Shown here: one piece after another, positions 4,103 through 18,849 of the stretch
Layout of the letters: each line of letters starts with the position of its first letter
Numbering within the stretch: the stretch's first letter is position 1
Virus record (IMG/VR): IMGVR_UViG_3300031787_000867
Span: 1-23,321 of that record
Strand: one strand, 5' to 3'
Source of the DNA: a virus
Length of the DNA: 23,321 bases
Notes under the pieces: generated by a model
The model's database searches: none
The model's input: the letters and a program-made list of their open reading frames with translations, nothing else
Told to the model about the DNA's origin: nothing
Position numbers and translations under genes: made by a program

Positions 4103-5032
4103 ATGGCTATCTCTCGTGCACAGCTACTTAAGGAACTCCTCCCCGGCCTGAACGCTCTGTTCGGTATGGAGTACGCTCGCTACGGCGAAGAGCACAAAGA
4201 AATCTACGAAATCGAAAAGTCTGAGCGTTCCTTTGAAGAGGAAACCAAGCTGGCCGGTTTCGGTGCTGCACCCGTCAAGAACGAAGGCTCTGCCATCGCT
4301 TACGACAACGCGCAGGAAGCTTTCACTGCTCGCTACACCCACGAAACCATCGCCCTTGGCTTCTCGATCACCGAGGAAGCTGTGGAAGACAACCTGTACG
4401 ACAGTCTGTCTGCCCGCTACACCAAGGCTCTGGCTCGTGGTATGTCCTACACCAAGCAGGTCAAGGGCGCTGCCGTCCTGAACAACGGCTTCAGCCAGAA
4501 CTACCTCGGTGGTGACGGCGTGTCCCTGTTCGGCGTGAACAGCTCCGGCACCCGTGTTGGTCACCCGCTGGTTGGCGGCGGCCAGAACTACAACAGCCCG
4601 ACCACTGGCGTCGATCTGAACGAAACCTCGCTGGAAAACGCCACGATTCAAATCGCTGCGTGGACCGATGAGCGTGGACTGCTGATCGCTGCCAAGCCGG
4701 TCAAGCTGGTGATTCCGCCGAGCCTGATGTTCGTTGCCAAGCGTCTGCTGGACACCGAACTGCGTGTTTCTACTGCTGACAACGACATCAACGCTATCAA
4801 GCAACTGGGCACCATCTCTGGCGGCTACACCGTCAACCACTTCTTGACCGACACGAACGCTTGGTTCCTGACCACGGACGTTCCCAACGGCATGAAGATG
4901 TTCGAGCGTGCAGCGCTGACCACCTCTATGGACGGCGACTTCGACACCGGCAACGTCCGCTACAAGGCCCGCGAGCGTTATTCGTTCGGCTGGTCTGATC
5001 CCCTCGGCATGTGGGGTTCTTCTGGTTCTTAA
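4103..5032 (+). CDS. Major capsid protein (HK97-fold, Mu gpT-like group)
   Basis: A 309-residue protein behind a strong ribosome binding site (TAAGGAGTAACATAAA before ATG). It begins with a helical segment (SRAQLLKELLPGLNALFG) and continues with IYEIEKSERSFEEETKLAGFG, then YTHETIALGFSITEEAVEDN, typical of capsid proteins with a long alpha helix and E-loop. Later AAKPVKLVIPPSLMFVAKRL and GMKMFERAALTTSMDGDFDTGN are the parts I recognise from the Mu-type major head group; the end is RYKARERYSFGWSDPLGMWG. The length suits an HK97-fold protein without a large N-terminal delta domain, in agreement with a separate scaffold gene. It is followed by a strong intrinsic terminator, as often seen for highly expressed coat genes. 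I am confident in the role; the exact subfamily is less certain. Confidence 0.9.
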   Translation: MAISRAQLLKELLPGLNALFGMEYARYGEEHKEIYEIEKSERSFEEETKLAGFGAAPVKNEGSAIAYDNAQEAFTARYTHETIALGFSITEEAVEDNLYDSLSARYTKALARGMSYTKQVKGAAVLNNGFSQNYLGGDGVSLFGVNSSGTRVGHPLVGGGQNYNSPTTGVDLNETSLENATIQIAAWTDERGLLIAAKPVKLVIPPSLMFVAKRLLDTELRVSTADNDINAIKQLGTISGGYTVNHFLTDTNAWFLTTDVPNGMKMFERAALTTSMDGDFDTGNVRYKARERYSFGWSDPLGMWGSSGS

Positions 5033-5731: not shown

Positions 5732-6022
5732 ATGACGATGCAATATGACGTTAAGTCAACCCATAGAAACTCCTCGGGGTCCATTTTTGGCTCCCGGGCG
5801 CGTATCAAGGGGTTTTCTATCTGCGCGACTGCCAGCCTAGCTGGCTCGTTGTTGCTGAAGGACGGCGGTTCCGGCGGGACCACGGTGATTGAAGTTGACA
5901 TCCCATCTAACTCCAACCCGAACTCGTTTTATATTTTGGTGCCGGGTGAGGGGGTGCTGTGCTCGACTGACATCTACGCATCGCTGACGAACATCGCCAG
6001 CGTCACGGTGTTCTATGGCTAA
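5732..6022 (+). CDS. Small beta-rich phage protein, function unknown
   Basis: A 96-residue protein starting MTMQYDVKSTHRN; a second in-frame ATG two codons later is an equally possible start. After a basic N-terminus (FGSRARIKGFSICA) it alternates short hydrophobic strands and turns (GSLLLKDGGSGGTTVIEVDIP, FYILVPGEGVLCSTDIYASL, ASVTVFYG), consistent with a small beta-sandwich. This kind of compact domain is frequent among phage head or neck accessory proteins, but I cannot name a family. It is 12 bases behind the previous gene, and its last eight bases overlap the start of the next gene. Confidence 0.55.
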   Translation: MTMQYDVKSTHRNSSGSIFGSRARIKGFSICATASLAGSLLLKDGGSGGTTVIEVDIPSNSNPNSFYILVPGEGVLCSTDIYASLTNIASVTVFYG

Positions 6023-6269
6023 GACCGCAGCATGGACTCGCAAGGAAGGCAAGAACCCCAAAGGCGGCCTGAACGCCAAGGGACGAGCCTCCTACAACGC
6101 AGCCAATCCGGGCAAGCCCGGCTTAAAGGCCCCTCAACCAGAGGGCGGCAAACGCCGCGACTCTTTCTGTGCCCGGATGACTGGCATGAAGAAAAAGCTG
6201 ACCTCGGCCAAGACCGCGAACGACCCCAATAGCCGGATCAACAAGAGCCTTCGGGCTTGGAAATGCTGA
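6015..6269 (+). CDS. Small basic phage protein (WTRKEGKNP...GGLN family, possibly DUF6321)
   Basis: An 84-residue, strongly basic protein (about one quarter Lys plus Arg). Its pattern is distinctive: AWTRKEGKNPKGGLNAKGR, then NPGKPGLKAPQPEGGKRR, then SFCARMTGMKKKLTSAKTAN and a terminal SRINKSLRAWKC. I recognise this arrangement from small proteins of many aquatic phages; I believe it is annotated as DUF6321, but I cannot verify that. The role is untested; the charge and lack of hydrophobic core suggest nucleic-acid or virion interaction. It overlaps the previous gene by eight bases and ends one base before the next ATG. Confidence 0.65.
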   Translation: MAKTAAWTRKEGKNPKGGLNAKGRASYNAANPGKPGLKAPQPEGGKRRDSFCARMTGMKKKLTSAKTANDPNSRINKSLRAWKC

Positions 6270-6270
6270 C

Positions 6271-6474
6271 ATGACTGAGAAAACAGAAACCGTTAAAAAC
6301 GTTCTGGACTTCGTGGCCGTGTTCACGGCGATTGGCTCGTTCTTGCAGATTCTTACCCCGGTGTTTGGTCTGATCGGCGCTATCGTGGGGGTCATGCGCA
6401 TCTACGAGATGGCGACCGGGAAAGAGTTTTCTACGCTTTGGCGCAAGAAGGCTGCTGATGCCGAGCACGAGTAA
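6271..6474 (+). CDS. Small membrane protein, possible class II holin
   Basis: A 67-residue protein with a charged N-terminus (MTEKTETVKN), one long hydrophobic stretch over residues 11-43 that could form one long or two short helices (VLDFVAVFTAIGSFLQILTP then VFGLIGAIVGVMRIY), and a basic, charged tail (KEFSTLWRKKAADAEHE). Length, topology and tail resemble class II phage holins such as T7 gp17.5. A more convincing three-TM holin is encoded next to the endolysin at 21499, so this one could be a second holin, an antiholin-like partner or an unrelated inner-membrane protein. It sits far from the endolysin among tiny basic proteins, which weakens the holin call. Confidence 0.5.
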   Translation: MTEKTETVKNVLDFVAVFTAIGSFLQILTPVFGLIGAIVGVMRIYEMATGKEFSTLWRKKAADAEHE

Positions 6475-6805
6475 GAAGCAGCACAACTTTATGGCTGCGG
6501 TGGCTAACAGCCCCGCGTTTGCCAAGAAGGCCGGAGTCCCCGCGAGCGTGGGGAAAGACTTCATCAACGCGGACAAGGGCCGCAAATTTAAAGAAGGTGG
6601 TGACACTATGGCTTCCAAAATGAATGCGGGCTTTATGGCGATGATGGCTAAGAAAAAAGGCATGCCCGCCAAGAAAATGGCTTCTGGTGGAATGACCAAG
6701 ATGGGCGCTGTGAAGACCGCCGCCCCCAGCAAAGACGGTATCGCGTCCAAAGGCAAAACCAAGGGCAAGATGGTCAAGATGGCCTACGGTGGCAAATCCT
6801 GCTAA
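6458..6805 (+). CDS. Basic small protein, DUF3008-like N-terminus plus Lys/Gly-rich repeat region
   Basis: A 115-residue protein starting in the tail of the previous gene (17-base overlap) behind AGAAGG. Residues 1-45 (SKKQHNFMAAVANSP, ASVGKDFINADKGRKF) resemble the small DUF3008-type family. The rest is Lys, Gly, Met and Ala rich, with the end of the cassette motif KDGIASKGKTKGKMV shared with the genes downstream. It then continues nine residues further to a GGKSC end. A second ATG at 6609, preceded by AAGAAGGTGG, could start a shorter protein of 65 residues (MASKMNAGF onward) in the same frame. Function unknown; basic composition suggests a nucleic-acid-associated or packaged protein. Confidence 0.6.
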   Translation: MPSTSKKQHNFMAAVANSPAFAKKAGVPASVGKDFINADKGRKFKEGGDTMASKMNAGFMAMMAKKKGMPAKKMASGGMTKMGAVKTAAPSKDGIASKGKTKGKMVKMAYGGKSC

Positions 6806-6813
6806 GGACTACC

Positions 6814-7011
6814 ATGTACGACGAACTTCAAGCCAAGAAGAAGCCTCGGGGCCTCAAGGGCGGCGTCTATACGGAGGATTCTGGCCTCCCGCCCCCGCAG
6901 GATATTGACGGCGGCTCTGCCCCCCGCAAGCCCAAACCTATGGCCAAAGGCGGCGTTACCCGTGCAGACGGATGCATTGTTAAAGGTCACACCAAAGGTC
7001 GGATGGTCTAA
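6814..7011 (+). CDS. Small basic protein ending in the shared C-terminal cassette
   Basis: A 65-residue protein, ATG eight bases after the previous stop with AAGGAC overlapping that stop. The first 42 residues are proline-, lysine- and glycine-rich and predicted disordered (AKKKPRGLKGG, LPPPQDIDGG). The last 23 residues are the cassette MAKGGVTRADGC then IVKGHTKGRMV. Nearly the same ending is used by the genes ending at 7217 and 7576 with unrelated N-termini. I recognise the ending as recurrent in small proteins of uncultured phages, but know no function. The N-terminus may be a linker for a functional C-terminal tag. Confidence 0.6.
   Translation: MYDELQAKKKPRGLKGGVYTEDSGLPPPQDIDGGSAPRKPKPMAKGGVTRADGCIVKGHTKGRMV
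6940..7011 (+). repeat. 24-codon C-terminal cassette, copy 1
   Basis: Encodes MAKGGVTRADGC then IVKGHTKGRMV and the stop. It is exactly 72 bases and aligns without gaps to copies at 7146-7217 and 7505-7576. Against copy 3 the DNA is largely conserved, including CCCGTGCAGACGG, so a fairly recent duplication or exchange is likely. Confidence 0.8.
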
Positions 7012-7013
7012 AA

Positions 7014-7217
7014 ATGGCCGAGATGTTGACGACCAAAAAGATGTATGAGCAGCTCACTACTGAGCCAGCAAAAGCATCGATGGCGCACACCACCAAGGCT
7101 ATGAACATGGCGAGCAAGATGGGCAAGCCGCCCGAAGAGAAGAAGATGGCCAAGGGTGGCTGCTGCCGTGGCGACGGCATCGCTCAGCGGGGCAAGACGA
7201 AAGGCAGGATGGTGTAA
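7014..7217 (+). CDS. Small basic protein ending in the shared C-terminal cassette (cysteine variant)
   Basis: A 67-residue protein two bases after the previous stop. Its first half is helical and methionine-rich (LTTKKMYEQLTTEPAKASMA, AMNMASKMGKPPEEKK). The last 23 residues are the cassette, here MAKGGCCRGDGIAQRGKTKGRMV in two parts around GDG, with an adjacent Cys pair replacing Val-Thr. The stop overlaps the next ATG (TAATG), so the two are probably translationally coupled. The N-terminal region does not resemble those of the neighbours that carry the cassette. Function unknown. Confidence 0.6.
   Translation: MAEMLTTKKMYEQLTTEPAKASMAHTTKAMNMASKMGKPPEEKKMAKGGCCRGDGIAQRGKTKGRMV
7146..7217 (+). 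repeat. 24-codon C-terminal cassette, copy 2
   Basis: Same length and position relative to the stop as copies 1 and 3, with the conserved frame [MK]KGG....DG....G.TKGR.V. It is more divergent than the other two and closer in its DGIA..GKTKG core to the partial copy in the gene ending at 6805. A purine-rich AAGAGAAGAAG lies directly before its ATG, so independent translation cannot be excluded. Confidence 0.75.
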
Positions 7218-7576
7218 TGGCTAAAGGCAGGAAAACAGCGGCTATGCTTGGGCTTCTTGGCGCAGGCGCACTTGCAGCTAAACAGATTCCGTACTTAGGA
7301 AGAGTTGACCTCGACGCCGGCCCCAAAGCAACAAGGCCCGAGCTTGAGAATAGGATGCCTGAGTACCCGGTTGTATCTGAGGAAGATCGAACAGCCGCCC
7401 GCAAGCGAGTTTATGCCACTGAGCCCAGCCTTCGTGGCACGCTCAGGACTGAAGACTACCGACCAATCCTTTCAGGCACGGGCCTTCCTATTAAGACTGG
7501 TGGGATGAAAAAAGGCGGTGTCACCCGTGCAGACGGGTGCATCACCAAGGGCCACACCAAAGGCAGACTCGTATGA
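7217..7576 (+). CDS. Protein with hydrophobic N-terminus ending in the shared C-terminal cassette
   Basis: A 119-residue protein whose ATG shares a base with the previous stop (TAATG). Residues 8-21 are a short hydrophobic helix (AAMLGLLGAGALAA) after a basic start (MAKGRKT), which could be a membrane or membrane-peptide segment. Residues 25-95 are polar with a Pro/Arg/Glu-rich stretch. The final 23 residues are the cassette MKKGGVTRADGC then ITKGHTKGRLV. The longest of the cassette-bearing proteins and the only one with a hydrophobic segment, so it may place the cassette at a membrane. The stop overlaps the next start (ATGATG). Function unknown. Confidence 0.6.
   Translation: MAKGRKTAAMLGLLGAGALAAKQIPYLGRVDLDAGPKATRPELENRMPEYPVVSEEDRTAARKRVYATEPSLRGTLRTEDYRPILSGTGLPIKTGGMKKGGVTRADGCITKGHTKGRLV
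7505..7576 (+). repeat. 24-codon C-terminal cassette, copy 3
   Basis: Ends the 119-residue gene. It matches copy 1 at all but four of 23 residues and keeps much of the DNA sequence, with changes mainly at third positions. A GGTGGG run lies just before its ATG. Confidence 0.8.
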
Positions 7577-7848
7577 TGGCCAGTCGCGGTATGGGCGCTA
7601 TTGCCCCCAGCAAGATGCCCAAGGGAGTCCGTAAATCTCGGAGAGACGACACGGATTTTACGGAATATGCTGAGGGCGGCAAGGTCAACGCTGCGGGCAA
7701 CTACACCAAGCCGGGGATGCGCAAGTCGCTGTTTGAGTCCATCAAGTCTCAGGCGGTGCAGGGCACGGCGGCAGGGCAGTGGAGCGCGAGAAAAGCGCAG
7801 CTTTTGGCTAAGAAGTACAAGGCCAAGGGCGGCGGGTATAAGGACTGA
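7573..7848 (+). CDS. Small basic protein with GQWSARKAQ motif (DUF5872-like, part 1)
   Basis: A 91-residue protein; the start is the ATG at 7573 or the adjacent one at 7576, both overlapping the previous TGA. An upstream in-frame ATG at 7537 would lie inside the previous gene and is unlikely. The C-terminal 50 residues carry the pattern GGKVNAAGNYTKPGMRKSLF, then GTAAGQWSARKAQLLAKKYK and GGGYKD. I recognise this from many phage proteins and from proteins of algal viruses, and believe it belongs to the DUF5872 group. The function is unknown. The basic, helical character with a central Trp suggests DNA or RNA binding. It is followed two bases later by what looks like the companion domain. Confidence 0.65.
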   Translation: MMASRGMGAIAPSKMPKGVRKSRRDDTDFTEYAEGGKVNAAGNYTKPGMRKSLFESIKSQAVQGTAAGQWSARKAQLLAKKYKAKGGGYKD

Positions 7849-7850
7849 AC

Positions 7851-8084
7851 GTGAAGGCCCCGCAGCAATCGCTCAAGGACTGGACCGCCCAGAAGTGGAG
7901 GACTAAAAGTGGCAAACGCTCTTCTGACACAGGTGAACGGTATCTTCCGGAGGCTGCTATTAAAAGTCTCACTCCGTCTGAATACGCTGCTACAACCCGG
8001 GCCAAAAGAGCGGGTAAAGCCGCCGGAAAACAATTCGTAAAGCAACCACCTAAAGTGGCAGCAAAAACGGCGAGGCATCGATAA
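7851..8084 (+). CDS. Small basic protein, W-T-x-Q-K-W-R-T-K-S-G family (DUF5872-like, part 2)
   Basis: A 77-residue protein with a GTG start two bases after the previous stop. Its core, SLKDWTAQKWRTKSGKRSS then GERYLPEAAIKSLTPSEYAA and GKAAGKQFVKQPPKVAAKT, is a well-conserved pattern that I know from both phages and nucleocytoplasmic viruses of algae. In some of those proteins, as I recall, this part and the GQWSARKAQ part lie in one polypeptide; here they are two adjacent genes. The strongly basic composition points to nucleic-acid binding, but no function is established. The stop overlaps the adaptor gene start (TAATG). Confidence 0.65.
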   Translation: MKAPQQSLKDWTAQKWRTKSGKRSSDTGERYLPEAAIKSLTPSEYAATTRAKRAGKAAGKQFVKQPPKVAAKTARHR

Positions 8085-8782
8085 TGGCAACCTCTGGGAC
8101 CTCAAGCTTTAACCTCGACCTCTCCGAGATCGTTGAAGAGGCGTTTGAGCGCTGTGGCTCAGAACTGCGCACGGGCTATGATCTGAAGACGGCGCGTCGG
8201 TCTTTGAACCTGATGTTCGCTGACTGGGCCAACCGTGGCATCAACATGTGGACGTTTGAGCAGGGCACGCAGACCCTGACTCCGGGGGTGGCTACCTACA
8301 CCCTGCCTGCCGACACGGTTGATCTTCTTGAACACGTCATCCGTACCGGTGCTGGGAATGCCGCCACGCAGGCAGACCTGACGATCACGCGTATCAGTGT
8401 TTCTACCTACGCCACCATCCCCAACAAGCTCCAACAAGGCCGCCCCATCCAGATTTGGATCGAGCGTCTGAACACCCCGCAGTTCACTGTCTGGCCGGTG
8501 CCGGACAGCTCTCAGACCTACCAGCTCGTCTACTGGCGGCTGCGCCGCATCCAAGACGCGGGTAACGGCACCAACACCATGGACATGCCGTTCCGGTTCA
8601 TCCCATGCATGGTGGCGGGTCTGGCCTACTATTTGTCGATGAAGGTCACGGGGGCCGAGGCGCGCATGCCCGTGCTGAAGCAGCAATACGACGAAGCGTG
8701 GGCGCTGGCCGCTGAGGAAGACCGGGAAAAGGCCGCTGTGCGGTTCGTCCCGCGCCGGCAGTACTTGGGTAGCGGCACCTAA
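8084..8782 (+). CDS. Head-tail adaptor, P22 gp4-like
   Basis: A 232-residue protein. The N-terminal helical part (LDLSEIVEEAFERCGSELRT, then LKTARRSLNLMFADWANRG) is the pattern of P22 gp4-type tail accessory factors, which bind below the portal and close the packaged head. A beta region follows (TLTPGVATYTLPADTVDLLE) and the C-terminal helices (PFRFIPCMVAGLAYYLSMKV, KQQYDEAWALAAEEDREKA) end in a basic RFVPRRQYLG. Length is close to gp4-like proteins of this phage group. It is TAATG-coupled on both sides. A second adaptor-like gene is at 9583. The family is recognised from pattern; the exact ring it forms is inference. Confidence 0.75.
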   Translation: MATSGTSSFNLDLSEIVEEAFERCGSELRTGYDLKTARRSLNLMFADWANRGINMWTFEQGTQTLTPGVATYTLPADTVDLLEHVIRTGAGNAATQADLTITRISVSTYATIPNKLQQGRPIQIWIERLNTPQFTVWPVPDSSQTYQLVYWRLRRIQDAGNGTNTMDMPFRFIPCMVAGLAYYLSMKVTGAEARMPVLKQQYDEAWALAAEEDREKAAVRFVPRRQYLGSGT

Positions 8783-9181: not shown

Positions 9182-9376
9182 ATGGACAAGAAAGATTTGG
9201 CACAGGACAAAAAGACGGCGGCAAAGGCTGTGCATATGCACGAGAAAACTCTGCACCCCGGCAAGCCTCTGACCAAAATGAAGGCTGGTGGCAAGACCAA
9301 CGCCGACATGCTCAAGTACGGGCGCAACATGGCTAAGGTCATGAACCAGCGTAGCTCTGGTCGCAAGGGAGGCTGA
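9182..9376 (+). CDS. Small basic phage protein, KAGGKTNADM...GRNMAKVMNQ family
   Basis: A 64-residue protein. The start at 9182 (MDKKDLAQDKK) is chosen because AAGGAG at 9170-9175 stands at a proper distance; a TTG at 9158 would extend into the previous gene. It is rich in Lys, Ala and His in the first part (KAVHMHEKTLHPGKP) and then has KMKAGGKTNADMLKYGRNMA and MNQRSSGRKGG. This pattern recurs in small proteins of uncultured phages. The Lys-Ala-Gly-Gly-Lys block recalls the start of the cassette at 6940 and its relatives, though the rest differs. Function unknown; likely nucleic-acid or virion associated. Confidence 0.65.
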   Translation: MDKKDLAQDKKTAAKAVHMHEKTLHPGKPLTKMKAGGKTNADMLKYGRNMAKVMNQRSSGRKGG

Positions 9377-9377
9377 T

Positions 9378-9575
9378 ATGGCAACGTACAAACAACCCAC
9401 TAAGGTCGCAACTCCGGTTGTCGGTCAGATGCCGGTGAAGGAAGCTTTGAAGGCAAACGTCTCCGTTGCCAACGAGCGCACGAACGAATACGACGGGGTA
9501 AAGACCTCGGGCATCAAGATTCGTGGCACTGGCGCGGCTACCAAGGGCGTGATGGCCCGTGGGCCCATGGCTTGA
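9378..9575 (+). CDS. Small basic phage protein ending in GIKIRGTGAATKGVMARGPM
   Basis: A 65-residue protein, one base after the previous stop. The first 40 residues are polar (MATYKQPTKVATPVVGQMPV onward). The C-terminus, SGIKIRGTGAATKGVMARGP, has a spacing like the cassette core DGIAxRGxTKG at 7146, with three extra residues, so it may be a distant relative of that ending. The pattern is familiar to me from other phages with similar gene order. No domain with a known role can be seen. It ends seven bases before the next start. Confidence 0.6.
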   Translation: MATYKQPTKVATPVVGQMPVKEALKANVSVANERTNEYDGVKTSGIKIRGTGAATKGVMARGPMA

Positions 9576-11496: not shown

Positions 11497-14400
11497 ATGG
11501 CTGATCGTTACTGGGTAGGTGGCACGGGGACGTGGAACACCACCAGCACAACAAACTGGTCCGCATCAACTGGCGGAGCTAGTGGCGCATCTGTCCCCAC
11601 CGTAGCGGACAGCGTCTTCTTTGATCAGGCAGGCACTTATACCGTTACGGTGAACGGAGCCTTGGCGTGTTTGGATATCACGGTATCAGCAGGAACTGTT
11701 ACATTTTCTAGCGCCGGGCTTCCTGGTCTTACAGTTGCCGGATCGATGAGTTTGCTTGCTACCACTACATGGAGCGCTCAAACTACATTTACATTTACCG
11801 CCACTACTACCGGAAAAACTGTAACAGCCAGCAATCCATTTTCTGCTTCAGCCTTTAACTTTAACGGTGTTGGCGGTGGATGGACACTTGGCAGCGCAAT
11901 ATCGACTGGTGGTGGAACGTTTGTTGTAACGGCGGGTAGCGTTGATTCTGCAAATTACAGTATTACCTGCAATCAATTAGGTTTTTCAGGATCATCAGTT
12001 CGATCTTTAATTCTTGGATCAAGTACGGTTACGGTAACCGGAACTCAAGTAAATGTAATCATCGCTGGAACGATAACAAACCTAACTTTTAATGCCGGAA
12101 CTAGCCAAATTAATCTTACAAGTGGCTTGCTCTCAGGGATTTCTTCGGGCGGGCTGACTTTTTATAATATTGCATTTACCGGAACAACTGCCGGAACGCA
12201 CGCCATTACTGGCAGTAACACGTTCAACAACCTTGCATTCACCGCCCCTTCCGCCGCAGGTTTGTCCCTAGTAACATTTAACGCGCAGCAGACCATCAAC
12301 GGCACCCTGTCCACCACGGGCACGGCGGGCAACCGGCGGGTGTTCTTTTCCTCCGCCACCTACGGCATCTCTGTTGACCTAGTAGTCAACTCTGCCCCCA
12401 GCCTGACAGACGCAGACTTCCGGGGTCTCTATGTCAGGGGCACATCGGCCCCCATCAGCGGCACACGAATCGGCAACCGTGGCGAGTGCAGGGGCATCAC
12501 GTTCAGCACGCCAAAGACGGTGTACTTCAACGGATCGGGCGCTGGGCTTAACTGGAGTGGTAATTCATGGGCTTTATCTTCTGGTGGCGCAGTCAGTACA
12601 GATAACGTGCCTTTGGCGCAAGATACGGCCATCATAAACAACTCTTCAGTATTTACGCAGTTGGTCTTAGATACTGCCGTATTGGCGCTCCCGACAATTG
12701 ATTTTTCTACTAGAACCAATGCGTTGAGTGTTACGGGAACTGCGGCAAATACAATTTACGGTTCTTGGACTAATGGGTCTGGCATAACTGTAACGATGGC
12801 AACAATACTTATCTTTCAGGGTGGAGCAACCCAAACCATCACCAGCGCAGGTAAAACATTTTCTGGCCCCATCACCGTCGACACCTACGGCGGCACAGTA
12901 CAGCTTGCTGATGCGTTGAACCTTACGGGGCAGACCTTTACGGTTACAAACGGGACGTTTAGTACGGCAGGCTTTGCAGTAACTGCTGGTATATTTTCGT
13001 CCAGCAACAGCAACGTAAGGACTATTAACCTTGGCGCAAGTGCTATAGTTTTGTCAACCACAAGTGCTCCTGTTGTTTTTACCACCGTAACTAATTTAAC
13101 TTTTAATGCCGGAACATCTACTGTTACTGTTAGTTTTAACGCTGGCGGAAACCAAACTTACAATTGGGGTCAAATAACTTGGTACAATGTAATATACGTA
13201 AATCCATCCTCATTTTCTTATATATTCGGCCAAGCAACAACTTTCAATAACTTAACATTTCCTACGCAGAGTTCGCTTGTACTGACAAATAATATTACAG
13301 TTAATGGCACATTAACATGTAGTGGAGCATCTGCGTCTTCAAGAAACAGCATAGTATCCAATACTCTTGGCACTCAACGCACACTCTCAGTCAACAGCCT
13401 CTCTGCCACTGACTGCGACTTCCGAGACATTAATCTTGCTGGCACTGCTGCGGGGTCTTCGCCAACTCGTGCGGGCAATCTCGGTGGTAATACAAATATC
13501 AACTTCCCCGCAGCCAAGACGGTTTACTGGAACCTAGCGGGCACGCAAAACTGGACAGCCAATGCATGGGCTGCATCATCGGGGGGCTCACCTGCCGTCA
13601 ACAATTTTCCGCTGGCGCAGGATACGGCAGTGTTTGATAACGCCGGTGCTGCGGGCACGATAACATTTAACGGTTCTTTGCCAAATATTGATGCGTCGGG
13701 CAGGACAACCGCCGTCACGTTTACCACTAGTATATTTAGCTTCAATATCTATGGCGATCTAAAACTTGGAACAGGTGTAACTTCTTCCAGTGCATCTGGC
13801 GCACTTGTTTTTGCTAAAGACGGCTCTCAGACAATCACCAGCAACGGCGTTCAGTTTGGCTGCAACGTCACCATCAACCGCCCATCCGCAACCGTCCAGC
13901 TTGCCGATGCGCTATCCCTAAACTCGGCCCGTACCCTGACCCTCACCAGAGGGACGTTTGACGCTGTCACCTACAACGTGACTACGGGGTTGTTTGGAAA
14001 TAGTTCTACCAGCAACACCCTAAGAATGGGGTCCGGCACGTGGACGCTGTCTGGTACGGGGACGGTTTGGAGTTGTTCTGTAGCACCCACGATAGTTTGC
14101 GGAATATCAACAATTGTTATATCTGATACGTCCACAACTGCCAGAGCTTTTGATGGCGGCAACCTGTACTACAACAAGCTGACCGTTGGTGGTGCGACGG
14201 GGACATCTACGCTAACGATTACTGGATCGAACACATTTGGTGAACTAGCTTCTACCAAGACGGTGGCCCATACCATCACACTGCCGTCTAGCACAACAAC
14301 AACGGTTGGAAAATGGTCCGTCACGGGCACTGTGGGCAACGTAGTCACACTGGCCCCATCCACCGCTGTTACCGCGTACACACTCTCCATATCTGGTCCC

Positions 14401-16623
14401 GCCAACACCGGCATCGACTACTTGTCGATCAGCTACTGCACTGTTGCCACCACCAGCCCCGGAGAGTTCTATGTTGGTGTAAACAGCACCAACACCGCTG
14501 GCAACACGCGAGTTATCTTCACTGCTACCCCTGCGGCCCGGACACTCTACTGGGTAGGCGGTACGGGCAACTGGTCTTCTACGACCAAGTGGTCAACATC
14601 TTCTGGTGGTGGCTCTGGCGCGGCTATCCCAACATCCCTAGACGCGGTTGTCTTTGACTCTGCTTCCAACGCCACGGCCTACACAGCCACCATTGACGCA
14701 GGCGTGACTCTGGCTCGGTGTGCATCGTTCACCATGGCTGGCCCCGCCGCAGGTAACGTGACCTTTGCCGGGACTGTGGGTATCGCCTTCCACGGCAACG
14801 TCAGCTTTGCGGCCACCGGTATCACCCGGACATACACGGGCGGTATGCAATGGGCCGGTAATGCCAGCTACACGTTTACCACGAACGGGTTGACGCTAAA
14901 CTCTAATTGCACGGTTACGGGTATTGGCGCGACGTGGACGCTTGGCTCGGCCATTACAACAGGCTCAAATACAACAATAACATATGGAACTTTTAATACT
15001 GCCAATTTTAATTTAACAGGTTCCCTTTTTTCTAGTAATAACGGAAATATAAGGTCTATAAGTTTGGGGTCCAGCACGATCACAAACAATACCACCACAG
15101 CATCGCCTGTCAACCTTACAAATAATACAAACCTTACATTTAATGCTGGCACGTCAACTTTTTTAGATACAACAAATAAAGGTGGCGCTAATTTTAACGG
15201 CGGCGGGTTGACGTTCTATAATGTTTCTTATACTGGGACACTATCTGTTGGTGGGTCTTTGAATATTATAGGAACCAACACGTTTAATTCACTGTCATTT
15301 GCTGGGCAAACGGCTGTTGGTATTTTTACTGTTACGTTTAGTGCCAATCAAACAATTACCACCCTGACTTTGAATGCGGGTTTTTCTTCTGCCTGCCGTA
15401 CATTCCTAGCCTCTGACACAATTGGGACCGCCAGAACCCTAGCAGTCACGACGCTAACCGCAGGCGCTACGGATGTTGATTTCCGAGACATTACGGTTAC
15501 TGGCGCGGCGGCCCCCATTTCAGGCACACGGTTTGGCGATGCTAAGGGCAACTCAGGCATCACCTTCCCGGCAGCGAAGACGGTCTACTGGGCAGTGAAC
15601 ACTGCTAACTGGGGGGCGGGAAGCGCGGGTTCTTGGGCCGCAACATCAGGCGGCGCTGCCGCGAACGATCAGTTCCCCCTCCCCCAAGACACTGCCTACA
15701 TCCCGTTTGCCACGCCCACCAGCGGCAGCACCATCACGGTCAACGCCAACTACAACATTGGCACGATAGAGATGAGCAACCGTAACGGCAGTGCGCTGGT
15801 TACGTTTGCAACGGGCACGACAACGCCTTCGATCTATGGCAACTGGATCAACGGGACGGGAACGACGTTGAGCGGTAACGGAACAATGACGTTTGCTGGT
15901 CGGGGCAGTCAAACAATTAGAAGCGAAGGGAAGACGTTTACGCAAGGCTTCACAATAAATACGCCGGGAGGGTCGGTAACCCTTCAAGATGCCTTTGTCT
16001 GTAATTTAAATGCGGCGGGGGCACTAAGTCCTTTGCAGGGTACTTTTGATGCCGCAACGTATAACGTCACTTTATCAGGGGCGTCATCAGCGGTAAGCGC
16101 TTCCGGGACGGGTGTTCGGACGGTGGCTATCGGTTCTGGAACTTGGACTATTGCCGGAACTACTGGATGGACTGCGGGTACTTCTACCAACCTTACCGTC
16201 ACAGGTACTGGCACCATCACCATGACCAGCGCCTCCTCCAAAACCTTTAACGGAGGCGGTATCTCCTACTCCGGCATCACTCTTGATCAAGGCGGCGCGG
16301 GCGCATTGAGCATCTCGGGCAACAACACCTTCAAGACAATCACCAACACGTACAGCGCCACGGGCGCTACGTCTATTTCTCTTGGTGGCACAACAACAAC
16401 TCTGACCGATCCTTGGACTGCCACGGGCGCAGCCACCCGGGTTCTGACTCTTAGCGGAACGTCTGCCGCTTCTCCCGCCACTCTGGTTTACACCGGCGCA
16501 GGAGTAGCCGCAAACACGGTTGACTACCTTTCCATCAGCAACGTCCGTGCTTACCCACTTGTTGATGAGTGGTACGCAGGGGCCAACTCCACCAACGGCG
16601 GCTCTCTAGGCTGGTACTTCGTT
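11497..16623 (+). repeat. Five tandem ~340-residue modules in the giant gene
   Basis: Module boundaries lie at about 11497, 12514, 13516, 14539 and 15577, a spacing of roughly 1.0 kb. Each module opens with a W..GG/SSGG block and a P(L)AQDTA or PT..D.V.FD segment. Inside is GTFDxATYNVT, then LGSGTWTLxGT, then NLTFNAGTST, FYNVxxTGT and ITGSNTFNNL. Modules I, II and IV end with DFRDI...G.R.GN...ITF; modules III and V end with DYLSIS...GxNSTNxG. Confidence 0.8.
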
Positions 16624-18849
16624 GCCGCAGGCGGCACGGTCTACGCTGCGACCATTACTGAGACGGGTACTGGCTCCGACTCTATCCTTGCCCGGGCGAT
16701 CTTCAACAGCATCATCTCCGAGACCGGCACCGGCACGGACTCCATCAGCGCAAGCCTTGGAGGGATCACCTACCTCGGCACTATTGAAGAGCTTGCCACT
16801 GGCTCTGACGCTGTTCTGGCTCAAGCTATCTTCCGGGCATCGCTGGCTGAGTCTGGCACAGGCACCGACACCATCTCCGCACGGTCTGCGTTTGGCACTG
16901 CGATCCTTGAGTCCGCAACCATTGCCGACACTAACCTTGCCCGGCTGATCGCCCGCGCTACGCTGTCTGAGACCGCCACTGGGTCTGACACTGAGTCCGC
17001 CAGTCTGTCCGCAAACTCTACGCTGGCAGAGACCGCCACAATCACCGACGCGAATGTTGGGCGCATCAGCTTCCCTACGGTCATCAGTGAAACGGCCTCT
17101 GGCTCCGATACCGACGCAGCCAGCCTAACTATTAATCCTGCGATCTCTGAGACTGCCACGGGTACGGATGCTGTTTCTGCCCGGGCGATCTTCCTTGCTG
17201 CGGTTGCTGAGTCCGGCACGATCACAGACCTGATCTCCGCAATCAAGGGGTACTTCGTTGCCATCCTTGAGAGCGCTACTGGCACGGACACCTTCTCTGC
17301 CAAGTACACCACCCTGCCCAGCGTCTCCGAGACTGCCACCATCACCGACGCCAACGTCGGGTTCATCAGTTTTCCCACGACGATTTCCGAGACCGCAACC
17401 GGTACGGATACTGACTCCGCCCAGTACATCACCCGGCCCAGCATTGCTGAGTCCGCTACTGGCACTGAGACTGTCTCTACCCTCTACAGCACCAACCCCA
17501 GCGTTGCCGAGTCTGCTACCGGCACTGAGACTGTCAGCCCGCGCTATATCGCCAATCCCAGCATCGTGGAGTCTGCGTCCATCACTGACGCAGTGGCTGC
17601 CCGGTACATTGCCCTGCCCAGCATCTTTGAGTCTGCCTCCGGGTCGGACATCATCGTTGGTGGCCTGCGCTTCATAGGCGTTATTGCAGAGACTGCTACG
17701 GGTACTGAGACCGTCGCCGCCCGGTACATCACCAACCCATTCATCGCAGAGACAGCCACCGGCTCTGACACAGACGCAGCCAGACTGTCTGCCGCAGGGA
17801 TCATCTCCGAGACCGCAACCGGCACTGAGACCATCACCACCCGGGCCACGTTTAAATCAGATATTGCCGAGTACTCATCAGTCGTTGAGATTGTCCGGGC
17901 ATTCTTCACCGCCGCCGCGCAGGTTAGCGAGCTTGCCACGGGTACTGATCAGGTCAGCGCCTTGCGTGCGTTGGCTGCGGCGGTTGCTGAGACAGCCACG
18001 ATCACAGACAGCCTGTCCGCCCGGGCGGTGTTTATCGGGCTTCTCCAAGAGGCAGCTACAGCCCAAGACGCTGTAAACGCTCCGGGCTCGACCTACAACA
18101 TCTTGATGCAGGAGCTTGCGCAGGCGCAGGATGCGATTACCACGCAGGCCATCTTCTTGGCTTCTCTGGCCGAGACCGCCACCGGCACCGAGACCAACAG
18201 CGCAGCCTTTATCCCCCGGGCCACGATCACCGAGTCGGCCACCATCACGGATGCAGTGAGCGCCCTCCAAGCGTTTGCCGCCAGCATTTCCGAGACCTCC
18301 GCAGCCTCTGACTCAGTGCTGGTTGCTCCGTCAATCTTCAACGCCATTGCTGTTGCCTCTGCTACAGCCCTAGACAATTTAAACGCACCGGGCAGCATCT
18401 ACAACGTCACTATCCCCGAGAGCGCCACCCTGTCCGACAGCGTGATCGGGGCGTTCCTGTGGAACCTGATTGACGATTCCCAGCCGGAAAGCTGGCAGAA
18501 CGTGCTGGACGCACAGTCTGTTACTTGGAGCGCCATAAATGCCAGCCAGACTGCGGGCTGGGGGGAAGTTGATAGTGCGCAGGCTACCTCATGGGGTAAC
18601 GCAGACTCTGCTCAGGCCCCGGGCTGGCAGGACGTGCAGACCTCCCAAACTGGGACTTGGAACTCCGTGGATGACTCCCAGAGCGTTAACTGGCAAAATG
18701 TGGTAGATACGCAGTCGGTTAGCTGGAACGACATAAACGCCAGCCAGAATGCCGGGTGGGGGAACACGGGGAACGCTCAGTCTGGGACATGGAACAACAT
18801 TGACGACGACCAAGACCCGGACTGGGTAGACATCCCGACATTGAATTAG
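11497..18849 (+). CDS. Giant repetitive tail fibre/adhesin-like protein
   Basis: A 2450-residue protein, nearly a third of the window. It is rich in Ser, Thr, Gly, Ala and Asn and very poor in Lys. Three zones are visible. Residues 1-1709 are five modules of about 340 residues, beginning near 1, 340, 674, 1015 and 1361, with starts such as YWVGGTGTWNTTSTTNW and KTVYWN.AG; each is predicted all-beta, like a solenoid or stacked beta-helix. Residues 1720-2323 are thirty repeats of 20 residues. Residues 2325-2445 are eleven repeats of 11 residues with an invariant Trp. There is no signal peptide, TM segment or visible enzyme motif. Position before a tail fibre gene and after neck genes supports a virion fibre or surface adhesin. 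The Trp tract is C-terminal, so it may be a tip, trimerisation or attachment element. It is not a tape measure, as it lacks helical or TM character. Confidence 0.75.
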   Translation: MADRYWVGGTGTWNTTSTTNWSASTGGASGASVPTVADSVFFDQAGTYTVTVNGALACLDITVSAGTVTFSSAGLPGLTVAGSMSLLATTTWSAQTTFTFTATTTGKTVTASNPFSASAFNFNGVGGGWTLGSAISTGGGTFVVTAGSVDSANYSITCNQLGFSGSSVRSLILGSSTVTVTGTQVNVIIAGTITNLTFNAGTSQINLTSGLLSGISSGGLTFYNIAFTGTTAGTHAITGSNTFNNLAFTAPSAAGLSLVTFNAQQTINGTLSTTGTAGNRRVFFSSATYGISVDLVVNSAPSLTDADFRGLYVRGTSAPISGTRIGNRGECRGITFSTPKTVYFNGSGAGLNWSGNSWALSSGGAVSTDNVPLAQDTAIINNSSVFTQLVLDTAVLALPTIDFSTRTNALSVTGTAANTIYGSWTNGSGITVTMATILIFQGGATQTITSAGKTFSGPITVDTYGGTVQLADALNLTGQTFTVTNGTFSTAGFAVTAGIFSSSNSNVRTINLGASAIVLSTTSAPVVFTTVTNLTFNAGTSTVTVSFNAGGNQTYNWGQITWYNVIYVNPSSFSYIFGQATTFNNLTFPTQSSLVLTNNITVNGTLTCSGASASSRNSIVSNTLGTQRTLSVNSLSATDCDFRDINLAGTAAGSSPTRAGNLGGNTNINFPAAKTVYWNLAGTQNWTANAWAASSGGSPAVNNFPLAQDTAVFDNAGAAGTITFNGSLPNIDASGRTTAVTFTTSIFSFNIYGDLKLGTGVTSSSASGALVFAKDGSQTITSNGVQFGCNVTINRPSATVQLADALSLNSARTLTLTRGTFDAVTYNVTTGLFGNSSTSNTLRMGSGTWTLSGTGTVWSCSVAPTIVCGISTIVISDTSTTARAFDGGNLYYNKLTVGGATGTSTLTITGSNTFGELASTKTVAHTITLPSSTTTTVGKWSVTGTVGNVVTLAPSTAVTAYTLSISGPANTGIDYLSISYCTVATTSPGEFYVGVNSTNTAGNTRVIFTATPAARTLYWVGGTGNWSSTTKWSTSSGGGSGAAIPTSLDAVVFDSASNATAYTATIDAGVTLARCASFTMAGPAAGNVTFAGTVGIAFHGNVSFAATGITRTYTGGMQWAGNASYTFTTNGLTLNSNCTVTGIGATWTLGSAITTGSNTTITYGTFNTANFNLTGSLFSSNNGNIRSISLGSSTITNNTTTASPVNLTNNTNLTFNAGTSTFLDTTNKGGANFNGGGLTFYNVSYTGTLSVGGSLNIIGTNTFNSLSFAGQTAVGIFTVTFSANQTITTLTLNAGFSSACRTFLASDTIGTARTLAVTTLTAGATDVDFRDITVTGAAAPISGTRFGDAKGNSGITFPAAKTVYWAVNTANWGAGSAGSWAATSGGAAANDQFPLPQDTAYIPFATPTSGSTITVNANYNIGTIEMSNRNGSALVTFATGTTTPSIYGNWINGTGTTLSGNGTMTFAGRGSQTIRSEGKTFTQGFTINTPGGSVTLQDAFVCNLNAAGALSPLQGTFDAATYNVTLSGASSAVSASGTGVRTVAIGSGTWTIAGTTGWTAGTSTNLTVTGTGTITMTSASSKTFNGGGISYSGITLDQGGAGALSISGNNTFKTITNTYSATGATSISLGGTTTTLTDPWTATGAATRVLTLSGTSAASPATLVYTGAGVAANTVDYLSISNVRAYPLVDEWYAGANSTNGGSLGWYFVAAGGTVYAATITETGTGSDSILARAIFNSIISETGTGTDSISASLGGITYLGTIEELATGSDAVLAQAIFRASLAESGTGTDTISARSAFGTAILESATIADTNLARLIARATLSETATGSDTESASLSANSTLAETATITDANVGRISFPTVISETASGSDTDAASLTINPAISETATGTDAVSARAIFLAAVAESGTITDLISAIKGYFVAILESATGTDTFSAKYTTLPSVSETATITDANVGFISFPTTISETATGTDTDSAQYITRPSIAESATGTETVSTLYSTNPSVAESATGTETVSPRYIANPSIVESASITDAVAARYIALPSIFESASGSDIIVGGLRFIGVIAETATGTETVAARYITNPFIAETATGSDTDAARLSAAGIISETATGTETITTRATFKSDIAEYSSVVEIVRAFFTAAAQVSELATGTDQVSALRALAAAVAETATITDSLSARAVFIGLLQEAATAQDAVNAPGSTYNILMQELAQAQDAITTQAIFLASLAETATGTETNSAAFIPRATITESATITDAVSALQAFAASISETSAASDSVLVAPSIFNAIAVASATALDNLNAPGSIYNVTIPESATLSDSVIGAFLWNLIDDSQPESWQNVLDAQSVTWSAINASQTAGWGEVDSAQATSWGNADSAQAPGWQDVQTSQTGTWNSVDDSQSVNWQNVVDTQSVSWNDINASQNAGWGNTGNAQSGTWNNIDDDQDPDWVDIPTLN
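16654..18465 (+). repeat. Thirty tandem 20-residue (60-base) repeats in the giant gene
   Basis: Consensus [IV][AS]ET-ATGTDTVSAR-hhhxxS, with unit phase kept almost perfectly. Only the second unit is 23 residues and one near the end is 21. ATGTD alternates with ATITD. Unit pairs at about 17014 and 17314 are near copies at a 300-base (five-unit) offset. Synonymous differences between copies are frequent, so the protein pattern is kept while the DNA drifts. Confidence 0.9.
18469..18831 (+). repeat. Eleven tandem 11-residue Trp repeats at the C-terminus of the giant protein
   Basis: Consensus [VI]DxSQxxxWxx over residues 2325-2445, followed only by IPTLN. Gln and Trp are present in all eleven units. 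Units 1-4 resemble units 7-10 (for example INASQTAGWG and INASQNAGWG), giving a higher-order period of six units, 198 bases. Confidence 0.9.

Follow-up and report, generated by a model that had tools for sequence, protein, structure and literature searches.

A modular C-terminal tag on unrelated small proteins encoded between the capsid and portal-adaptor genes of a phage lineage

The window and its tagged gene island

The DNA analysed here (the "window") comprises 23,321 nt, i.e., positions 1-23,321 of the viral IMG/VR record IMGVR_UViG_3300031787_000867, and carries head and tail genes of a tailed phage: the portal end, a scaffold-like gene, the capsid gene, a run of tiny genes (6015-8084), the adaptor gene and the tail genes. 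Four of the tiny genes, termed P1 to P4, code for small proteins that carry the same short peptide at or near their C-terminus (Table 1). This peptide, the "tag" (or "tag A"), and the dissimilar protein bodies that precede it are the subject of this report.

An earlier sequence-only reading of the window had described 72-base cassettes at the ends of three consecutive genes and a further copy in a fourth. The three cassettes (P2, P3 and P4) are exact if the stop codon is counted in, and the fourth copy indeed lies within P1. The bodies were described as mutually unlike, and BLASTP comparison of the four bodies without their tags yields no significant match (best E 0.21). A back-translated core of the tag (DG, four residues, G, H/K-type, T, K/R-type, G, R, M/L, V) occurs in the window at the three cassettes only, and nowhere in 100 dinucleotide shuffles. 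Between P2 and P4, the DNA of the tags is 83% identical along 53 bases. The constant unit consists of a GG linker and approximately 16 C-terminal residues; the opening Met of the original description is not a fixed part of it, the residue three before GG in related carriers being often Met, and also Tyr, Phe, Lys or Leu. Similarly, the term "hydrophobic-anchored" applies to the body of P4 and to few other carriers: 7 of 403 distinct bodies pass a hydrophobicity cut, some of them through upstream read-through, and transmembrane or ejection-channel bodies are rejected as a common theme on this count.

Table 1. Features of the window in and around the tagged island.
Feature	Coordinates	Strand	Remark
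Major capsid protein	4103..5032	+	left side of tagged island in related loci
DUF6321 gene, island edge, untagged in window	6015..6269	+	13 related ORFs tagged
P1, N-terminal MPSTSKKQ module and tag	6458..6805	+	
Internal tag copy in P1, DGIASKGKTKGKMV	6734..6775	+	nine residues before P1 end
P2, Pro-rich body and tag	6814..7011	+	
C-terminal tag of P2, MAKGGVTRADGCIVKGHTKGRMV, stop included	6940..7011	+	
P3, body and tag; orthologues with differing tag versions	7014..7217	+	
C-terminal tag of P3, MAKGGCCRGDGIAQRGKTKGRMV, stop included	7146..7217	+	
P4, body with hydrophobic start and tag	7217..7576	+	
C-terminal tag of P4, MKKGGVTRADGCITKGHTKGRLV, stop included	7505..7576	+	DNA close to P2 tag
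Portal-adaptor gene, right side of tagged island	8084..8782	+	name from relatives' annotation
Small protein with second, possibly related C-terminal motif GIKIRGTGAATKGVMARGPMA	9378..9575	+	

Spread, selection and lineage of the tag

A search with P3 returned at least 461 relatives among at least 599 stretches, 80 of which were kept, and a tag pattern without the stop codon returned at least 120 stretches; with the window, these make up 201 loci, which are partly non-independent, as some contigs were fetched twice and some are near-identical. Open reading frames (ORFs) were taken from stop to stop and bodies from the first Met, and hence some bodies include upstream read-through. A profile search for other N-terminal partners had been proposed with the sequence-only reading, and a profile built from 284 distinct tags matches 508 ORFs in the 201 loci (E < 1e-3). 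The tag lies within one residue of the stop codon in 383 of the 508 closed profile matches, and in loci found with the stop-free pattern the distance from the D residue to the stop is 14-15 residues in 200 of 248 carriers; the near-terminal position is not forced by the search pattern. Bodies and tag statistics are based on the 461 ORFs that fit the regular expression (regex) DG-x4-G-x-T-x-G, which forces the invariance of its five residues (D, G, G, T, G). The commonest residues, of which D, G, G, T and G are in part imposed by the search patterns, are GG-x-V-x-S-A-S-x-R-[AG]-D-G-[IC]-A-[QT]-[RK]-G-K-T-[KR]-G-[RK]-[MIF]-[VCI].

A strict tag pattern gave four stretches in a genome collection of 84,980 species, and an AT-rich pattern gave 83 further loci. 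No match was obtained by tblastn against phages with the bare 23-aa tag or a 27-aa consensus, queries that are probably too short, and searches of the literature and family libraries with motif strings and DUF6321 returned no family model or paper describing the tag. It is a real, modular C-terminal tag, without description in the libraries and papers searched. The ending could in principle reflect a recent tandem duplication of one gene end, devoid of wider meaning, as the closeness of the P2 and P4 tags in DNA might suggest. This explanation has a negligible probability and is refuted by the hundreds of ORFs in other phages that bear the tag on unrelated bodies. Found in approximately 280 other viral loci (some of which are the same contig repeated) and on well over 100 body families, the ending is neither bound to one N-terminal family nor merely a recent local duplication, and the initial view of a constant, transplantable ending on unrelated bodies holds.

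Selection acts on the tag at the peptide level, since its amino acids are retained although third codon positions are variable. For 310 distinct tag DNAs, mean entropies of 0.63, 0.55 and 1.59 bits were obtained at codon positions 1, 2 and 3, respectively, and the 11 codons left free by the regex give about 0.92, 0.80 and 1.63 bits. These values also bear on the idea that the tag is a recombination joint, i.e., conserved DNA at gene ends that permits the homologous swap of upstream genes and has little function of its own. In keeping with a joint, two window tags are highly similar in DNA (P2 and P4, see above), and tags within a locus are slightly more alike than tags between loci (0.738 versus 0.698; 0 of 500 label shuffles reach the within-locus value), as calculated for 326 of 369 tags with P1-type tags and repeated bodies excluded. 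Yet, a DNA joint would conserve all three codon positions, whereas the third is nearly free (1.59 of 2 bits). We consider such a joint very unlikely, and as the sole cause it is rejected by the third-position entropy. Exchange may be a by-product, and the greater likeness within a locus agrees with exchange between genes of the same genome or with adaptation to a single partner.

The DUF6321 gene illustrates the modularity of the tag. The window gene belongs to Pfam PF19846 (71.2 bits versus a cut-off of 28.5), and the DUF6321 body is found in 13 tagged and 127 untagged ORFs, 8 and 30 of which, respectively, were aligned. DUF6321 membership is a property of one optional carrier and not of the tag. 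Moreover, P3 orthologues bear several tag versions, including one orthologue that is 88% identical to the window P3 and ends in a different version.

The position of the tag in the genome is narrowly defined. In the 89 loci whose head gene and adaptor gene share a strand, the interval between these two genes holds 228 of 233 tag ORFs; five lie downstream, and none upstream or on the opposite strand. Seventeen records of 39-64 kb contain 47 tag-pattern matches at one place per record (reversed-pattern control: 0), and in the 13 long records with at least two matches all of them fall within 2.3 kb. Of 87 loci (83 from the AT-rich pattern and four from the species collection), 85 contain one or more of ten window-lineage core genes, the exceptions being a 1.4-kb fragment and locus L207. 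In the latter, a Patulibacter metagenome-assembled genome contig (L207:165-2132), an ORF at the contig end that resembles a bacterial membrane protein continues in frame into the tag, and the assembly is probably chimeric.

Judging from the relatives of its capsid and adaptor, the window phage is placed among the short-tailed Pam1-like podoviruses; Pag-Yong1, MinM2, Pra-JY27, DSL-LC04, HTVC023P and CRP-902 have a related adaptor and capsid (53-69% identity). Within the stretches read, Pag-Yong1 (a Planktothrix phage) and MinM2 have a single tagged protein each, with the ending GRDGCAKRGRTKGRFI, and an identical protein occurs in Pra-JY27; the three are cultured cyanophages. In record OL906435, the tag forms the end of the protein at 51312-52238. 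No such tag was found in the stretches read of DSL-LC04, HTVC023P, HTVC027P, CRP-902 and ct7L0027. Upon adaptor-based sampling, at least one tag lies between the flanks in 39 of 41 loci of the window clade versus 0 of 41 loci of the DSL-LC04 sister clade, where the best 80 listed matches per clade were considered and the 41 with both flanks were counted; 80 of the 88 tag ORFs in this census are located between the flanks. In the flank interval, the best four-residue C-terminal pattern occurs in 18 of 53 body families of the tagged clade versus at most 2 of 30 of the sister clade. At the level of sequence comparison, the tag is a module that is selected as a peptide and tied to one island and one lineage.

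Two further motifs resemble the tag. The protein encoded at 9378-9575 ends in RGTGAATKGVMARGPMA, and its relatives are present in 39 of 41 tagged-clade loci and in 0 of 41 DSL-LC04-clade loci. The underlying C-terminal motif, "tag B" (GIKIRGTGAATKGxMARGPMA), is almost always attached to one family (115 of 124 clustered bodies), and at least four of the nine other bodies are tag A forms picked up by the regex. In the sister clade, the motif RGMG[CA]ATRGG is located near the N-terminus of a small protein in 54 of 55 matches, and in DSL-LC04 the corresponding gene directly precedes the adaptor gene. All three motifs have a similar core, R-x-x-G-x-A-x-[KR]-G, and intermediate forms such as RGDGAAIRGKTRGGIR exist; the motifs are very short, and possibly they form one family. 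A helical body type is seen with either ending: the module HExxxHxGxPxTK is untagged in the window (9182-9373), has different C-terminal tails in related loci and is joined to tag A in five ORFs (39-57% identity over 37-64 aligned residues). In locus L050, a helical body that looks similar by eye bears tag B. A tblastn search of phages with the 9378 protein gave no match, and a literature search for the tag B string gave unrelated matches only. In Pelagibacter phage HTVC023P, two proteins (L211:15873-16607 and L211:26698-27078) end in the tag B-like sequence RGxGAAxRGxxFxGV[KF]. Further downstream in the window, at 11497-18849, lies an ORF of 2450 aa with many repeats at 60-base spacing, which perhaps codes for a giant tail-fibre or adhesin-like protein.

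Diversity and turnover of the tagged bodies

Loose linkage groups the tagged bodies into 146 families, including one chained cluster of 137 (P1-type), and strict linkage yields 218 families among 392 bodies, with 175 singletons; 23 carriers were too short for clustering. In an alignment of representatives of 135 of the 146 families (bodies of at least 58 aa), majority residues are confined to GGxVxSASxRADGIAQRGKTKGRMV, plus the start and one Pro. The 135 carriers were also scanned with Pfam, PHROGs, PADLOC and NCBIfam, and DUF6321 and the P1 module were the only convincing names. All other matches were single and mostly weak, for example TolA (4.6e-6), TonB (0.0012), two tape-measure PHROGs (0.003-0.007) and four PADLOC models. 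A defence function or another known-family identity of the bodies is rejected on these grounds, as is a match to solved structures, given that PDB searches returned nothing meaningful.

The N-terminal MPSTSKKQ module of P1 (window 6458-6586) corresponds to phrog_16759, and two PHROGs annotated as "virion structural protein" begin with it as well. It is 76.7% identical over 43 aa to the small phiKZ protein PHIKZ165.1 and matches 201phi2-1, too; small proteins of giant phages, phiKZ among them, have the module in common with P1. Another tagged body (L163:1589-2143) is rich in beta-strand-like repeats (VSGGYNPKSKVVGGRYQEEGFSAGLGYDP) and by eye unlike most others.

The turnover of the bodies was assessed in 90 loci with both flanks, with P1-type and DUF6321 carriers and bodies shorter than 42 aa excluded. 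When the adaptors of two loci are 95-99.5% identical, a homologue exists in the tagged set of the partner locus for 44 of 83 tagged bodies, versus 41 of 430 at 75-85% adaptor identity. At the latter distance, DUF6321 is kept in 196 of 200 cases, the gene at 7573 in 142 of 170 and the gene at 7851 in 120 of 149, and the best tag match in the partner locus has a mean identity of 81%. As far as homology can be traced by such comparisons, both the tag and the flanking genes change much more slowly than the tagged bodies.

A candidate docking motif and its relation to known loading signals

We suggest, as a proposal with about even chances, that the tag is a motif for docking on a late partner specific to the lineage, and that it most likely serves as a virion-loading signal in the manner of the capsid targeting sequence (CTS) of phage T4. 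Phages of one Pam1-like lineage would append this short C-terminal motif to fast-changing small proteins, which are encoded in one island between the capsid and portal-adaptor genes. The tag would bind one structural partner, such as the inner capsid face, the scaffold, the portal or packaged DNA, and the variable bodies would be taken up into the particle and delivered along with the genome. The selected, mostly terminal tag, for which no confident structure is predicted, the almost freely changing bodies and the head-tail gene setting in one lineage are as docking on a structural partner would predict. Loading into the virion or head is favoured by the location of the genes, by the restriction to one clade and by the parallel to T4; the P1 module, with which the two PHROGs of virion structural proteins begin, also counts for the proposal.

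The internal proteins of T4 are reported to vary greatly apart from their conserved targeting sequence (PMC3012670), and the likeness to the present case consists in a short constant peptide on highly diverse small phage proteins. The tag has this composition as well, and may serve targeting in the same manner. It differs in its C-terminal position, its podovirus lineage and its sequence, and the two systems are likened by sequence features, with packaging being proposed. The T4 CTS is N-terminal and is removed by cleavage during maturation. Since the tag is not N-terminal (see the 383 of 508 matches above), we do not assign it to the T4 family and propose that it works like the CTS. The T4 prohead protease cuts at sites of the L/I-x-E type, which are unlikely to occur inside the tag, because Glu is nearly absent from the listed tag columns (1 of 284 at one of them). 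A second parallel is provided by encapsulins, where a short C-terminal cargo-loading peptide recruits cargo to an HK97-fold shell via a conserved pocket. The tag likewise is short and C-terminal, but the setting is a different one and any shell partner would be hypothetical. A PDB profile search gave no meaningful match, nor did the window capsid match any PDB entry at E 0.001.

A more specific version of the loading model is plug-in delivery, where an uncleaved C-terminal tag would load an open-ended, fast-exchanging set of unrelated small effectors, and tag A, tag B and the N-terminal motif of the sister clade would dock on the same head-tail partner. We put this forward tentatively, as less likely than not.

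The composition of the tag allows a different reading, according to which it is a generic nucleic-acid-binding tail, a Gly-rich basic motif with a Walker-A-like GxxxxGKT. This motif would bind to the phosphates of DNA or RNA, and its carriers would be condensing or nucleoid-remodelling proteins of a histone-like kind, whether or not they are packaged. At three tag positions K and R replace each other, the pattern [AG]x4GK[ST] fits 431 of 461 tags, and the bodies are mostly basic (median charge +5 without the last 15 residues, 28 of 382 negative). However, uncharged positions that are not forced by the regex are conserved as well (e.g., A in 255 and S in 213 of 284 distinct tags), and a generic DNA binder would not need to be restricted to one clade and one locus; we regard this reading as unlikely. 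Despite the Walker A-like pattern, the tag does not qualify as part of a P-loop NTPase, and a P-loop enzyme is rejected: the tag, which in most cases is terminal, lacks a confident fold prediction, and no NTPase family appears in the Pfam matches of the 135 carriers.

Alternatively, the tag might dock the carriers inside the infected cell, on a factor of the host or of the phage such as a protease adaptor, the membrane or the transcription machinery, and the carriers would then be late takeover or anti-defence proteins outside the virion. Fast body turnover, which is typical of host-interaction genes, is compatible with such a role, and so is the fact that no carrier matches a known structural family, apart from the P1 module and the two weak tape-measure matches. 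An intracellular partner appears improbable nonetheless, given the single tag place per record in the 17 long records and its location between head and adaptor genes in the 89 loci; in addition, with four stretches in 84,980 species, the strict pattern does not look like a motif borrowed from a host.

Several observations weigh against virion loading by a docking tag. None of the 135 scanned carriers matches a family named internal or ejection protein (E <= 0.01), and among the capsid, scaffold and tail proteins of the window there is none of which a tagged body covers at least half. A literature search by the name Pag-Yong1 brought up no virion proteome for a tagged phage, no partner was found, and AlphaFold gives the tag no confident structure. 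The basic charge of the bodies is only partly special, as untagged ORFs in the sister-clade interval also have a median charge of +5, with 100 of 286 negative. Both tagged and untagged states occur in only 6 of 138 body families; in four of these, the untagged example still has a shortened tag at its end, and a fifth resembles an overlapping ORF, and since these five families are weak, the case for tagged and untagged states of one body rests on DUF6321. Finally, the apparent turnover may in part be a limit of BLAST, because short disordered bodies quickly lose detectable homology; the two short control genes (7573 and 7851) do not undergo such a loss of similarity.

If the tag loads proteins, a single motif would list the cargo across a large group of mostly uncultured phages, and more than 100 unannotated protein families would become recognisable as packaged or injected from their last 16 residues. 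A portable loading signal would then exist outside T4, and the small-protein cargo of short-tailed phages would become directly testable in cultured cyanophages. Should the role be a different one, the presence of a strongly selected peptide on so many unrelated bodies at a single locus still indicates that they share an undescribed partner.
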